Source: Amphibacillus xylanus NBRC 15112
GTDB lineage: Bacteria > Bacillota > Bacilli > Bacillales > Amphibacillaceae
Length of the DNA: 64,000 nt
Direction of reading: 5' to 3'
NCBI RefSeq assembly: GCF_000307165.1
Contig: NC_018704.1
Coordinates: forward strand, 496,001 to 560,000
A program made the position numbers and the translations under genes. Of this stretch, positions 4,661 to 53,255 are shown one piece after another (position 1 is the stretch's first letter; each line of letters opens with the position of its first letter). A model generated the notes under the pieces. It saw nothing but the letters and a program-made list of their open reading frames with translations, had not been told where the DNA came from and searched no databases.

Positions 4661-4710
4661 TTGACAATACCTTTACTTTATGGTTGTCTATGAGTAACTG
4701 AATAAATGAA

Positions 4711-4792
4711 TCACTAGGGGAGCAATATTGCTGAGAAAGACATGTCTTGACCCTTTGAACCTGATCTAGGTCATACTAGCGTAGGGAAGTGA
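4711..4792 (+). promoter_or_regulatory. TPP riboswitch (THI box)
   Basis: The conserved THI-box elements appear in order: GGGGAGC, GCTGAGA, GACCCTTTGAACCTGATC and the closing TACTAGCGTAGGGAAGTG. TCACT (4711-4715) pairs with AGTGA (4788-4792) as helix P1. It precedes tenA-thiZXY and should stop transcription when thiamine pyrophosphate is plentiful. A TTGACA at 4661-4666, overlapping the orfA start, could be part of the promoter, but no convincing -10 was found. Confidence 0.96.
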
Positions 4793-4833
4793 TGGCGGAC
4801 AAAACAACTATCTTAATTTTTGTTGTGTATTGT

Positions 4834-16068: not shown

Positions 16069-17595
16069 ATGATGTTAAGAAAGGTAAAAGTAGAAAACGG
16101 TTTGATTAAAGGCTTACCAGCGGCAGATCCTCGGATAACAGTTTTTAAAGGTATACCATTCGCAGCTCCGCCTGTTGGGGAAAATCGTTGGCGTGCGCCA
16201 CAGCCAGCTCTTAATTGGGAAGGTACGCTAAATGCTTTTGAGTTTGCGCCAATATCTATGCAGGCTACTCCAGGTTTAAATAAAGAAGACTTTTATGCTC
16301 GTGAATGGCATGTGGATCCGGAGATTCCAATGGATGAGGATAACCTATATCTTAACGTATGGACACCGGCAACTAGCACTGATGAAAAGCTACCAGTCTA
16401 TGTGTGGTTCTTTGGTGGTGGGTTCCAGTATGGTTATACAGCCGAAATGGAATTTGATGGTGAGAGAATTGCTCGTAGGGGTGCAATTGTTGTTACGGTG
16501 AATTATCGTCTGAATGTATTCGGTTTTCTCGGACACCCTGAGATAACTGCTGAAGCACCACATGCACCTACAAACTTTGGTTTACTAGATCAGCAGGCTG
16601 GTATAAAATGGGTTAAGTGTAACATCGCAGCATTTGGTGGTGACCCTGACAACATTACGATTGGTGGTCAGTCAGCAGGTGGAGGAAGTGTCATGTTCCA
16701 GTTAACCTCACCTCAAAATGAAGGGCTCTTTAATAATGCTGTCGTTCTAAGTGGTGTTTTTGCAAGCGTTTACAGAGATGAAAGGATACCGGGTGGCGGT
16801 AGAACTTTAGCAGAGGTGGAAGAAGCTGGCGTTAAGTTTTTTGATTTTCTAGGAGTATCTTCATTGACGGAAGCCCGTGCACTAGATGGTGAATTCGTTC
16901 GTCAAAAAATGCTAGAATATAAAGCCTTCTGGGGTCCAGTAGTAGATAACCAGTTTGTTATGGGAGATCCACTTAAGCTGTTTATGGAAAATAAGCGCTT
17001 GATGGTTCCAGTCATGTTAGGTCATACATCAGATGAATTCTATAGTGTTCCGAAGGTTTCTAATCTGGATGAGTTTAAGCAAATGGCGGTTCAGCTATTT
17101 GGTTCAGATGCAGATGAATTTTTAAAACTATGTAACGTTGAATCAAATAGTTTAGAAGAGGTGATAAAAAATGCCTCTATAAGAACGATTGAATATGCGA
17201 TACGAATTGCTGGACAGGCAAATTCTGATAGTGGAGCTAATACGCCACTTTATTACTATAACTTTGATCCGGAAATACCTGGTTGGGATAACCCGGGAAC
17301 ATTCCATTCGGCGGATCTATGGTTCTTCTTTGAAACACTAGCCAAGTGCTGGAGACCTTTTGTAGGTAAACATTATGATCTTGCCCGTCAAATGACAAAC
17401 TATTTAGCTAACTTTATTAGTAGTGGAGATCCTAATGGAAAGGATTCTACTGGCGAAGATATGCCGAAGTGGGAGCCATATAGTTCTGACGCTCCATATG
17501 GAATGGTATTTGGAGATCGAGCTGAATTCGTTAAAGAACAGCCTGATGATCTAATGAAGTTTTTAGTTAAACAGTATTTTAAGAATGAAAAATAA
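16069..17595 (+). CDS. Type B carboxylesterase / lipase
   Basis: This 508-residue alpha/beta hydrolase has all the type B carboxylesterase signatures. These are GIPFAAPPVGENRW near the start, EDNLYLNVW, the oxyanion region WFFGGGF and the nucleophile elbow GGQSAGGGS (serine near residue 203). The acid-region HTSDEF and catalytic histidine in TFHSADLW complete the set. It hydrolyses carboxylic esters in the cytoplasm, as no signal peptide is seen. Two consecutive ATGs follow GAGAGGAG. Natural substrate unknown; no operon partners. Confidence 0.9.
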   Translation: MMLRKVKVENGLIKGLPAADPRITVFKGIPFAAPPVGENRWRAPQPALNWEGTLNAFEFAPISMQATPGLNKEDFYAREWHVDPEIPMDEDNLYLNVWTPATSTDEKLPVYVWFFGGGFQYGYTAEMEFDGERIARRGAIVVTVNYRLNVFGFLGHPEITAEAPHAPTNFGLLDQQAGIKWVKCNIAAFGGDPDNITIGGQSAGGGSVMFQLTSPQNEGLFNNAVVLSGVFASVYRDERIPGGGRTLAEVEEAGVKFFDFLGVSSLTEARALDGEFVRQKMLEYKAFWGPVVDNQFVMGDPLKLFMENKRLMVPVMLGHTSDEFYSVPKVSNLDEFKQMAVQLFGSDADEFLKLCNVESNSLEEVIKNASIRTIEYAIRIAGQANSDSGANTPLYYYNFDPEIPGWDNPGTFHSADLWFFFETLAKCWRPFVGKHYDLARQMTNYLANFISSGDPNGKDSTGEDMPKWEPYSSDAPYGMVFGDRAEFVKEQPDDLMKFLVKQYFKNEK

Positions 17596-17668
17596 GTTGG
17601 CAAAGATGTTTTGGTAAACTAATCATCTATTTTAATAGAAGCTGGGACAAAACTAGTCAATTAAGTAT

Positions 17669-17709
17669 AAAAATGGCTCTGAACAAAAAAAGTGTTCAAA
17701 GCCATTTTT
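17669..17709 (+). terminator. Hairpin leader of element A, also terminator of the carboxylesterase
   Basis: AAAAATGGCT-TGAACA pairs with TGTTCA-AAGCCATTTTT and ends in a T-run. It lies about 75 bp behind the esterase stop and would serve as a bidirectional terminator. The same hairpin, slightly changed, opens element B. Confidence 0.75.
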
Positions 17710-17735
17710 GTTTGTTTGATTTATCATTTAAAAAA

Positions 17736-18415
17736 TACACACAAGTTCGCGAGAATACACACAAGTTTTGCGAAATGCACACAAGTTCTCGGAAATGCAC
17801 ACAAGTTCTCGGAAATGCACACAAGTTCTCGGAAATACACACAAGTTTTCGGAAATACACACAAGTTCCCGGAAATACACACAAGTTTTGCAAAATACAC
17901 ACAAGTTTTCGGAAATACACACAAGTTCTGCGAAATGCACACAAGTTCCCGGAAATACACACAAGTTTTGCAAAATACACACAAGTTTTGCGAAATGCAC
18001 ACAAGTTCCCGGAAATACACACAAGTTCCCGGAAATACACACAAGTTTTCGAAAATGCACACAAGTTCGCGAGAATACACACAAGTTTTAGGAAATGCAC
18101 ACAAGTTCGCGAGAATACACACAAGTTTTCGGAAATGCACACAAGTTCTCGGAAATACACACAAGTTTTCGGAAATGCACACAAGTTCCCGGAAATACAC
18201 ACAAGTTCCCGGAAATACACACAAGTTTTCGAAAATGCACACAAGTTCGCGAGAATACACACAAGTTTTAGGAAATGCACACAAGTTCGCGAGAATACAC
18301 ACAAGTTTTCGGAAATGCACACAACTTCCGCGAAATACACACAAGTTTTCGGAAATACACACAAGTTCTGCGAAATACACACAAGTTCTGCGAAATGCAC
18401 ACAAGTTTTCAAAAA
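17736..18415. repeat. Array A: 34 tandem 20-bp units
   Basis: The exact period is 20 bp from 17736, with a degenerate 35th unit at 18416. Each unit is T(A/G)CACACAAGTT followed by eight variable bases such as CTCGGAAA, CCCGGAAA, TTCGGAAA, CGCGAGAA, TTGCGAAA and TTAGGAAA. Bases 17994-18144 are repeated identically at 18174-18324, a 180-bp (nine-unit) internal duplication. The unit is two helical turns, so the conserved half lies on one face of the DNA. Confidence 0.97.
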
Positions 18416-18689
18416 TACACTCAACTTCCTCTTATAGAACAAAGAAGTGGTAATTTTATCTTGATCAGAAGCGTGTTTTGTCCCGGTCTCTTTTAAATTG
18501 GCAGTGTAAAGATTTTCCTACTCTTTATCGAGATCATTTTTTAGAAAATAGTCAAAAACTATATAAAATTTTTCTTGTTAATTTTCCTCTATTGACTATT
18601 TCTTATCAACCACTCAATTCTCTCATCTACACACAAAAAAACAGATATAATTTTTACACATTAATAACAGACATCAGAAGGACGTACAT

Positions 18690-31077: not shown

Positions 31078-32445
31078 ATGCAGTATGACAAGGCTTTATT
31101 TGAAACAATGCCGATTCCAAAAGCGGTAGCCAAAAATTCAATCCCAGCGATTATGAGTATGTTATTGGTTTTTGTATACAATGTGGCTGATACATTTTTT
31201 ATTGGACAAACAGGTGATGAACTACAAGTTGCGGCGGTTACGTTGTCTATGCCAATATTCACCTTACTTATCGGTGCAGGTGTATTATTAGGTGTTGGTA
31301 GTACATCGGTAATTTCACGGGCATTAGGTGCTGGCCGAGAAAGATACGCAAAAAACGTATCATCCTTTGCGTTTTACGGTGCGATTGGATTTGGTCTGCT
31401 TCTAATGGTGTTATTTTGGACATTTATGCCGATCGTTTTGAAAGTTATTGGTGTGACTCCAGATACATATGACTACACGCGTGCTTATTTAAATTATCTT
31501 GTTGTTGGCGCACCGTTTGTTATTTTGTCTCAAGCCTTTAGTAATATCATTCGTGCGGAAGGTCGCTCAAGCTTAGCTATGAGAGGTATGATGCTTGGGT
31601 CGATTGCTAATATCATTTTGGATCCAATCTTTATTTTTACGTTCGATATGGGACTGACGGGAGCAGCAGTTGCCACTGTGCTTGGTAATATTTTAAGTGC
31701 TCTTTATTTTATTCGCTATTTAGTATCGGGTCGTTCAATTCTGTCAATTAATCTTAAGGATTTTAAAGTAACAGATGGCATTATGCTAGGCGTATTGGCG
31801 ATTGGTATTCCGGCGTCATTAAACAATCTTCTGTTATCTGTAGCAAATATATTTATGAATAACTTTTTATCAAATTATGGAGATATTCAGCTTGCCGCTA
31901 TGGGGGTTGCGATCAGGGCAAATATGATTTTAGTTTTTGTTCAGATTGGATTGGGACAAGGAATTCAACCATTGATTGGTTATTGTTATGGTGCAAGGAA
32001 CTTTGATAGGCTGCGAGGAATTATTAAGTTCTCCTCTATTGCAGCGATTTGTTTAGGTAGTGTCTTAACATTAATTTATTGGGTACTGACTGATACGATC
32101 ATTGGATCTTTTATTGATAATAAACAAGTCATTGCCTATGGTACACAAATGTTACGGGCACTGATTATTTCAGGTCCAATTGTTGGGATAATGTTTATTT
32201 TTATTAACGTATTACAAGGGCTTGGTAAGGCAATTCCATCACTAATTTTATCAATATCTAGACATGGTTTAGTATTTATTCCGCTCATTTACTTATTAAA
32301 TCGTATCGCAGGATTAAATGGTGTCGTTTATACACAACCAATTACAGACATCGTGACTTCTATTATAGGCGTTTCAATCTATTTAGCTGTTATGCGTGGA
32401 GTAAAACGCAGTTATGGGACTCAACAAAGACAGGCTGGGACATAA
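31078..32445 (+). CDS. MATE-family efflux transporter
   Basis: This 455-residue protein has twelve membrane segments and the MATE signatures (NVADTFFIGQTGD near residue 40, ALGAGRERYAKNVSS, GLGQGIQPLIGYCYGARN). It exports cationic drugs or metabolites using H+ or Na+. The RBS AAAGAGGG precedes the ATG. Its last codons and its TAA stop are supplied by the left end of repeat element B (CAG GCT GGG ACA TAA), so the original C-terminus has been replaced. Confidence 0.9.
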   Translation: MQYDKALFETMPIPKAVAKNSIPAIMSMLLVFVYNVADTFFIGQTGDELQVAAVTLSMPIFTLLIGAGVLLGVGSTSVISRALGAGRERYAKNVSSFAFYGAIGFGLLLMVLFWTFMPIVLKVIGVTPDTYDYTRAYLNYLVVGAPFVILSQAFSNIIRAEGRSSLAMRGMMLGSIANIILDPIFIFTFDMGLTGAAVATVLGNILSALYFIRYLVSGRSILSINLKDFKVTDGIMLGVLAIGIPASLNNLLLSVANIFMNNFLSNYGDIQLAAMGVAIRANMILVFVQIGLGQGIQPLIGYCYGARNFDRLRGIIKFSSIAAICLGSVLTLIYWVLTDTIIGSFIDNKQVIAYGTQMLRALIISGPIVGIMFIFINVLQGLGKAIPSLILSISRHGLVFIPLIYLLNRIAGLNGVVYTQPITDIVTSIIGVSIYLAVMRGVKRSYGTQQRQAGT

Positions 32446-33079
32446 CTAGCTAAGATAGTGTAAAAAAATGGTTTTGAACATATAATGAAATGTTCGAAGC
32501 CATTTTTGTTTATCTATTACTATTTTCATCGTTAATAAAATACACACAAGTTTCGCGAAATGCACACAAGTTCGCGAGAATACACACAAGTTTCGCGAAA
32601 TGCACACAAGTTTTCGGAAATGCACACAAGTTCGCGGAAATACACACAAGTTCCCGAAAATACACACAAGTTCCCGAAAATACACACAAGTTTTGCGAAA
32701 TACACACAAGTTCGCGAGAATACACACAAGTTCCCGAAAATACACACAAGTTCCCGAAAATACACACAAGTTTTGCGAAATACACACAAGTTCGCGAGAA
32801 TACACACAAGTTCCCGAAAATACACACAAGTTTTGCGAAATACACACAAGTTCGCGAAAATACACACAAGTTCCCGAAAATACACACAAGTTCCCGAAAA
32901 TACACACAAGTTTTGCGAAATACACACAAGTTCGCGAAAATACACACAAGTTTTGCGAAATACACACAAGTTCGCGGAAATACACACAAGTTTCGCGAAA
33001 TACACACAAGTTCATCTTTTAAATCAAAAAAGTATAGTGATAATTTATCTTATCAGAGGTGAGTTTTTGTCCGGGCCTC
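32433..33079. mobile_element. Repeat element B: second copy of the array-bearing element
   Basis: It begins GGCTGGGACATAAC at 32433 and ends TTTTTGTCCGGGCCTC at 33079, with the same hairpin leader (ATGGTTTTGAACA...TGTTCGAAGCCATTTTT, 32462-32508), a 20-bp array and a unique tail as in element A. The ends are less perfectly inverted than in A. The left end overlaps the MATE reading frame. Confidence 0.75.
32541..33000. repeat. Array B: 23 tandem 20-bp units
   Basis: The period is 20 bp, with a partial 24th unit at 33001. The conserved half T(A/G)CACACAAGTT is identical to array A. The variable half differs in usage: CCCGAAAA, TTGCGAAA, CGCGAGAA and CGCGAAAA dominate. A four-unit block (80 bp) at 32641-32720 is repeated exactly at 32721-32800 and, slightly changed, at 32861-32940. 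Confidence 0.97.
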
Positions 33080-52803: not shown

Positions 52804-52960
52804 ACTAAATCCCCCTAAATATGTAATTTAATTATCACTATTATACACTTAAATTAAATTAACTAATAGATTGTCATAAAAATTCTGACTAATTCCTTCA
52901 AGTTGCATATTAGTAAATCTTGATGTATGATTGTAGATGGTCAAAAAAACTAAATATAAG

Positions 52961-53120
52961 AACCTTCGTTAGGCCAGGCTCCTGTGTGGAGATACGCTGC
53001 TGCCCAAAAATGTCCAAAGACGCCAATGGGTCAACAGAAACAATCGAATTAAGGTTGTTTTTAACGTAGCTGAAATTAATTTTCTATGCCACACAGTGCT
53101 AAAGCTCTACGATTGAGGGT
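52961..53120 (+). promoter_or_regulatory. M-box (ykoK) magnesium riboswitch
   Basis: The conserved M-box segments are present in order. They are CTTCGTTAGG, AGGCTCCTGT-TGGAGATACGCTGCTGCCC, AAAAATGTCC-AAGACGCCAATGGGTCAACAG, CATCGAATTAAGG-like and TATGCCACACAGTGCTAAAGCTCTACGATTGAGGG. AACC/GGTT closes P1. It lies 315 bp ahead of mgtE and should shut it off when Mg2+ is high. Confidence 0.95.
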
Positions 53121-53255
53121 TATAAATTTGCTAATGAGACGCCTGTTGTTTCTATTGGGATCATTTGAGCTGGAAATGTTGTTTAGATAACATTTTTGCT
53201 TGCGTGAATCCATTAAATTCAATTAGGTTCTGTCTGTTTTATTTGCGATTATTAA

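Follow-up and report, generated by a model that had tools for sequence, protein, structure and literature searches.

The window analysed here, a 64,000-nucleotide stretch of the Amphibacillus xylanus NBRC 15112 chromosome (NC_018704.1, positions 496,001 to 560,000), contains two tandem arrays of a 20-bp unit, each following the 3′ end of a gene. Using TRF, we found 34.8 copies in array 1 (17733–18428, + strand), downstream of a carboxylesterase-family gene (16069–17595, +), and 23.8 copies in array 2 (32538–33013, +), downstream of a MatE-family gene (31078–32445, +). The array 1 unit reads CACACAAGTT-YNSNR-AAATR; array 2 has the same period and an 80-bp higher-order repeat. In total, CACACAAGTT occurs 60 times in the window at ≤1 mismatch against 4.9 expected, a count reached by 0/100 shuffles. 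Array 1 had initially been annotated as 34 exact units. Its period is indeed exact, with a spacing of 20 in 34/34 intervals, but the unit is not: among the 35 that match CACACAAGTT at ≤2 mismatches, 33 do so exactly. The window also holds an M-box riboswitch (52958–53124) and a TPP riboswitch (4706–4804).

Both arrays lie within longer elements. The first opens with a left end at 17641–17656 (+; GCTGGGACAAAACTAG), containing an exact GGGACAAAAC at 17644–17653, and a terminator-like hairpin at 17669–17709 (+; ATGGCTCTGAACA...TGTTCAAAGCCAT plus a T-run). It closes with a right end at 18475–18494 (−; GTTTTGTCCC...), in which an exact GGGACAAAAC (18475–18484, −) is followed by GGTCTCTTTT. In the second element, the left end (32433–32449, +; GGCTGGGACATAACTAG) overlaps the end of the upstream gene and contains GGGACAAAAC with 1 mismatch at 32437–32446; a hairpin (32465–32507, +), the array and an imperfect right end (33063–33079, −; GTTTTTGTCCGGGCCTC) follow.

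Sixteen arrays share one unit across the chromosome

The initial annotation had recorded a second copy 15 kb away, namely array 2, and had tied a functionless minisatellite to a genome holding these two arrays only. Searching the whole chromosome (a single contig of 2,569,486 bp), we found not 2 but 16 arrays, the window's two included. Exact unit pairs numbered 137 on the + strand and 110 on the − strand, with 0 in the control, while pairs at 2 mismatches numbered 174 and 151, respectively. Since the pair sums over the 16 arrays equal the genome totals at both 0 and 2 mismatches, the list is complete for the core CACACAAGTT. The arrays comprise 9–42 units, and the spacing is 20 bp throughout all 16 except for five intervals, which measure 21 bp (three cases), 39 bp (one) and 40 bp (one).

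When ORFs inside the arrays themselves are disregarded, each of the 16 is intergenic with respect to the predicted genes; two are overlapped by gene ends, by 15 and 3 bp, and 13/16 follow a co-oriented gene. Pfam matches (E cut-off 1e-5 in one scan and 1e-8 in others) were obtained for 24 of the 32 immediate flanking ORFs; the matches are mutually unrelated and for the most part concern metabolism, transport, the cell surface or regulation. The other 8 had no match, and no ParM, ParR or Cas domain was found among the 32. A DDE transposase gene adjoins the array at 575 kb. A tandem array of a different period (52 bp, 7.9 copies) lies at chromosome positions 1076043–1076451, between ribosomal L27-like and spo0B-like genes. 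The names dnaA, dnaN, glpK, degV, typA, rpmA (ribosomal L27) and spo0B are presumptive, given by us from the translations; that of glpK is backed by a Pfam FGGY match.

The head with its terminator-like hairpin was found at 10/16 arrays among the BLAST matches listed, in agreement with our reading of all 16 flanks, while right ends, judged by eye, are present at fewer arrays than heads. The array at 2050k has no standard head; its start resembles one, but the hairpin is of another kind. Over the 10 heads, the hairpin has 15 predicted pairs, of which 3 show changes on both sides. A sister-species array at an orthologous site has no such head. Because it is found at only 10/16 arrays, the head does not define them, and the GGGACAAAAC ends are incidental. 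The inverted ends and opening hairpin that had been annotated are thus present in the window, with GGGACAAAAC exact at both ends of the first element and a hairpin in both elements, but the head is lacking at 6/16 arrays. A mobile inverted-repeat element would have inverted ends at every copy; with six headless arrays here and a headless orthologous array in the sister species, spread by a GGGACAAAAC element, as first proposed, is not supported as a general account.

Variation is concentrated at set positions of the unit

Across 333 internal units (114 distinct), the unit follows the pattern C A C A/t C A A G T T Y N S N R A A A T R. The fixed part (positions 1–10 and 16–19, with a purine at 20) therefore measures ~15 bp and leaves a variable part of 5 bp, in place of the 12 constant and 8 variable bp of the earlier description. 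Positions 11–15 and 20 account for 88% of the within-array variation. Adjacent units differ 202, 240, 162, 197 and 195 times at positions 11–15 and 188 times at 20, as against 66 at 16, 37 at 4 and 0 at 6, 7, 9, 10, 17 and 19. This spread is uneven (χ2 = 2302), and its unbiased test is restricted to positions 11–20, as the units were chosen by positions 1–10. Outside that selection region, 17 and 19 are invariant, 18 seldom varies and 16 varies in 39/333 units.

Variants of the variable part recur within and between arrays. Adjacent units had an identical variable part in 6.6% of pairs, compared with 11.0% after shuffling (P = 0.0024), whereas alternate units did so in 20.9%, a value matched by 0/5,000 shuffles. 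As alternate units are alike and neighbours are not, the higher repeat is 40 bp, and this is the step by which the arrays grow or function. Reading the flanks and arrays, we also found degenerate end units and block repeats or duplications.

Several other properties were examined. A hairpin inside the unit was dropped: the association between Y11 and R15 gave P = 4e-9 over 333 units, 0.056 over the 114 distinct units and 0.40 over 55 distinct 5-mers. A bent-DNA signature was dropped as weak and not shared. A coding repeat was rejected, with a stop in at least one of six frames in 15/16 arrays and no array-start frame open in all 16; array 2 is open in six of six frames and array 1 in four. Rfam gave no match at the window's two arrays or at 4 further loci. 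Regarding a phage or plasmid origin, array 1 had no blastn match in plasmid and phage collections, where the low-complexity filter may hide repeats, and a viral scan returned 9 contigs with AAGTT at 20 bp.

The arrays occupy a mid-arm zone

The arrays lie at 398, 428, 514, 529, 575, 610, 701 and 728 kb on one arm and at 2003, 2032, 2051, 2138, 2161, 2180, 2192 and 2222 kb on the other. Given that dnaA- and dnaN-like ORFs stand at the sequence start and that the GC skew of samples switches sign between 1.30 and 1.40 Mb, these positions place 16/16 arrays, eight per arm, 348–728 kb from the replication origin. The narrowness of this range has P = 1.4e-7 under a uniform model that assumes independent arrays, an assumption that recent copying would violate. 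Outside the zone, TRF detected no 20-bp array of ≥3 copies in 20 pieces of 20 kb (400 kb); the same sample yielded one 52-bp array. Mirror pairing of the two arms was not significant (P = 0.07 for the median, 0.22 for the mean), and replichore-specific orientation was dropped, arrays pointing both ways on both arms.

Several relatives have a similar plan in other letters

The exact unit pair was absent from 60 other genomes. At 2 mismatches it matched once each in two of 158 other family genomes, both times inside 20-bp arrays whose sequence is different. A pattern of five AAGTT spaced 20 bp apart (≤3 mismatches) matched 28/159 family genomes in 12/46 genera, several of the 28 having a single match (3 mismatches where shown) that may be chance. 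The reversed control, TTGAA at 20 bp, was found in 15/159, three of them with many matches, which are probably 20-bp arrays of yet other sequence. The other 131/159 family genomes had no match to the AAGTT array pattern; either the family can dispense with this type of array or it went undetected in those genomes. A GCAACTT pattern was found in 1/397 order genomes. A scan of named genomes returned at least 116 stretches, among them Amphibacillus, Lentibacillus, Saliterribacillus, Gracilibacillus and Oceanobacillus, and 20-bp arrays also occur, many among the matches listed, in cyanobacteria and other phyla.

In relatives with variable units, a fixed part ending AASTT is followed by ~5 variable bases, and the letters differ by species. 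Position profiles compared with that of A. xylanus were best in register (rank 1 of 15 shifts) for Amphibacillus sp. MSJ-3 (r = 0.76), S. persicus (0.80; one array of 12 units) and L. sediminis (0.40), and ranked 2 and 3 of 15 in register for DUPD01 and L. jeotgali, so that two of five relatives were not best in register under a choice of strand (greater variation after the pentamer) that favours an in-register result. The sister MAG DUPD01 has several cores (CAGAC, CTCTC and CATTC), mostly in separate arrays. At two MSJ-3 loci, 28-bp tandem arrays lie close to 20-bp arrays. In 400 kb of L. sediminis there are also arrays with periods of 52, 42 and 21 bp, together with a few others; 52-bp periods thus appear in two sampled genomes, the L. 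sediminis arrays being without clear sequence similarity to the A. xylanus 52-bp array.

From the same genus we sampled 13 arrays of MSJ-3 and DUPD01 (more exist there) and placed 12 via flanking genes; some placements rest on one flank or on genes a few kb away, and in one case two contig ends with an identical unit were treated as one array. On the A. xylanus map, the MSJ-3 arrays lie ~690, 694, 599, 485, 525 and 131 kb from the origin, with one unplaced, and those of DUPD01 ~738, 418, 434, 325 and 408 kb, with one at a junction (419/502). At this synteny junction, one flank maps to 419 kb and the other to 2,068 kb, which lie on opposite A. xylanus arms. In total, 11/12 sister arrays fall at 325–738 kb (P = 3.2e-5, with bounds chosen after placement) and 9/12 in the zone of 348–728 kb fixed beforehand (P = 0.0015). 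Eleven of the 12 occupy other sites than the A. xylanus arrays. The one shared site, between NERD-domain and ribosomal L31 genes, has the same orientation, with CTCTCAAGTT replacing CACACAAGTT.

Nine of 19 L. sediminis arrays examined could be placed (flank identity ≥56%), at ~565, 598, 711, 655, 323, 317, 116, 1002 and 78 kb from the origin. Zone enrichment was not significant here (4/9 in 348–728 kb, P = 0.26), in a count that omits one array whose flank matches several ABC paralogues and four with a 49%-identity flank (~722, 669, 741 and 467 kb), inclusion of the four giving 7/13. Within the L. sediminis genome itself, one array lies 156 kb from dnaA. One of the nine placed arrays follows the 3′ end of glpK (71% identical to that of A. 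xylanus), like the A. xylanus array at 2003 kb; the two are oriented alike but differ in their units. Two further arrays have a neighbour gene in common with a sister-genome array, on the gene's other side.

Discussion

The constraint on fixed positions, a plan that recurs in other letters and a zone kept despite turnover of sites suggest a selected function at the DNA level, most simply protein docking. Our preferred reading, to which we assign a probability of roughly 0.43, is that the arrays are docking strips for a DNA-binding protein that would assemble cooperatively on them. The initial annotation had likewise considered a binding-site array, which fits both the constraint seen inside the unit and its reappearance in relatives. 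Each unit would be a putative protein site, probably for a dimer, contacting CAAGTT and AAATRCAC on the two sides of a 5-bp spacer that is free to vary (YNSNR). A pair of units 40 bp apart may form one assembly step. Because units recur every two helical turns, the bound proteins would lie on one DNA face and could build up into a filament or solenoid in the manner of ParR on plasmid parC. The arrays may work at the DNA and not the RNA level, in pockets that lie behind transcription terminators, with a possible role in organizing or helping to segregate the middle of each arm. Sites would turn over, perhaps by recombination, with zone and plan persisting in the genus. The several cores of DUPD01 would be incompatible with one protein that reads all 15 bases strictly. 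We consider it doubtful that docking extends to a centromere-like mid-arm system, in which a protein would polymerize on the arrays of both arms, gather them and keep the arms in register, with site and protein changing together between species.

Ranked below docking, and its main rival, is a minisatellite without function, a reading we regard as quite possible. Unequal recombination in 40-bp and larger blocks would generate such arrays, which would spread to new intergenic sites. Spread from arm to arm would perhaps involve template switching between replication forks, which are equidistant from the origin at any moment. Degenerate end units, block repeats and alternation at even lags all fit this origin, as do the different sites of 11/12 placed sister arrays, the DUPD01 array whose flanks map to opposite arms and the presence of tandem arrays with a different period, for instance 52 bp in two sampled genomes. 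The replication slippage of the initial annotation correspondingly fits part of the data, namely the block duplications, the 40-bp alternation and the turnover of sites. A dispensable or neutral repeat is further favoured by the several cores in one sister genome, the many pattern-free family genomes and the loose distribution in Lentibacillus. However, a functionless repeat sits poorly with variation concentrated at set unit positions, as homogenizing recombination alone would not be expected to spare single positions. Nor does it account readily for a similar plan with different letters in other species or for adjacent units being less alike than shuffled ones, and mirror pairing of the two arms was not significant.

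Two further explanations carry less weight. The two A/T-rich patches per unit, ~10 bp apart, could create a curved stretch preferred by general nucleoid proteins or gyrase, with no dedicated reader; the second harmonic (10 bp) indeed takes 0.21 of the A/T-profile power in A. xylanus versus 0.10 expected. However, this property is not shared (an 18-species mean of 0.13 against a null of 0.10) and leaves invariant single bases unexplained, which makes bendable DNA improbable. We hold an RNA-level element to be very improbable, whether as transcribed sponge or leader RNAs or as a sequence coding for a repeat protein. Compensatory changes at 3/15 head-hairpin pairs and the open frames of array 2 (all six) and array 1 (four) would be in keeping with it, but the hairpin, which precedes the array, resembles a terminator, and 20 is no multiple of 3. 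Moreover, 15/16 arrays have a stop in at least one of six frames, no frame counted from the array start is open in all 16, and Rfam was silent at the window's arrays and 4 further loci.

Among known systems, parS, Noc sites and matS are single dispersed sites. The arrays resemble them in being repeated, zone-restricted (for this genus, L. sediminis not being significant) and predicted to bind protein, and differ in forming long tandem arrays at mid-arm positions. The regular succession of constant and variable segments recalls CRISPR, but here the variable part is 5 bp, its variants recur and the 32 immediate flanking ORFs have no cas match. Inverted ends and a hairpin at several copies are reminiscent of REP/BIME and MITE-like elements, whereas here the head is at 10/16 and arrays also occur headless, and with other flanks in relatives. 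Minisatellites or VNTRs are likewise head-to-tail, intergenic and of differing lengths, with block duplications; the present arrays are set apart by substitutions uneven over the unit, one consensus at 16 loci and one chromosomal zone. Finally, parC of the pSK41 type is described in PMC9426499 as 20-bp direct repeats bound by ParR, which acts as a dimer and builds a solenoid-shaped segrosome. By that description, both systems have tandem direct repeats with a fixed 20-bp spacing, while here there are 16 chromosomal arrays of 9–42 units, and none of the 32 flanking ORFs matched parM or parR. Among the matches listed in a search of open-access literature (titles and abstract openings), such arrays were not described.

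To our knowledge, origin and terminus domains have known site systems and the middle of the arms few. An array family confined to a mid-arm zone in one genus, with its plan kept but not its letters, would give a direct handle on this part of the chromosome. If the arrays are instead a minisatellite, they show recombination building helix-phased repeats that look functional.
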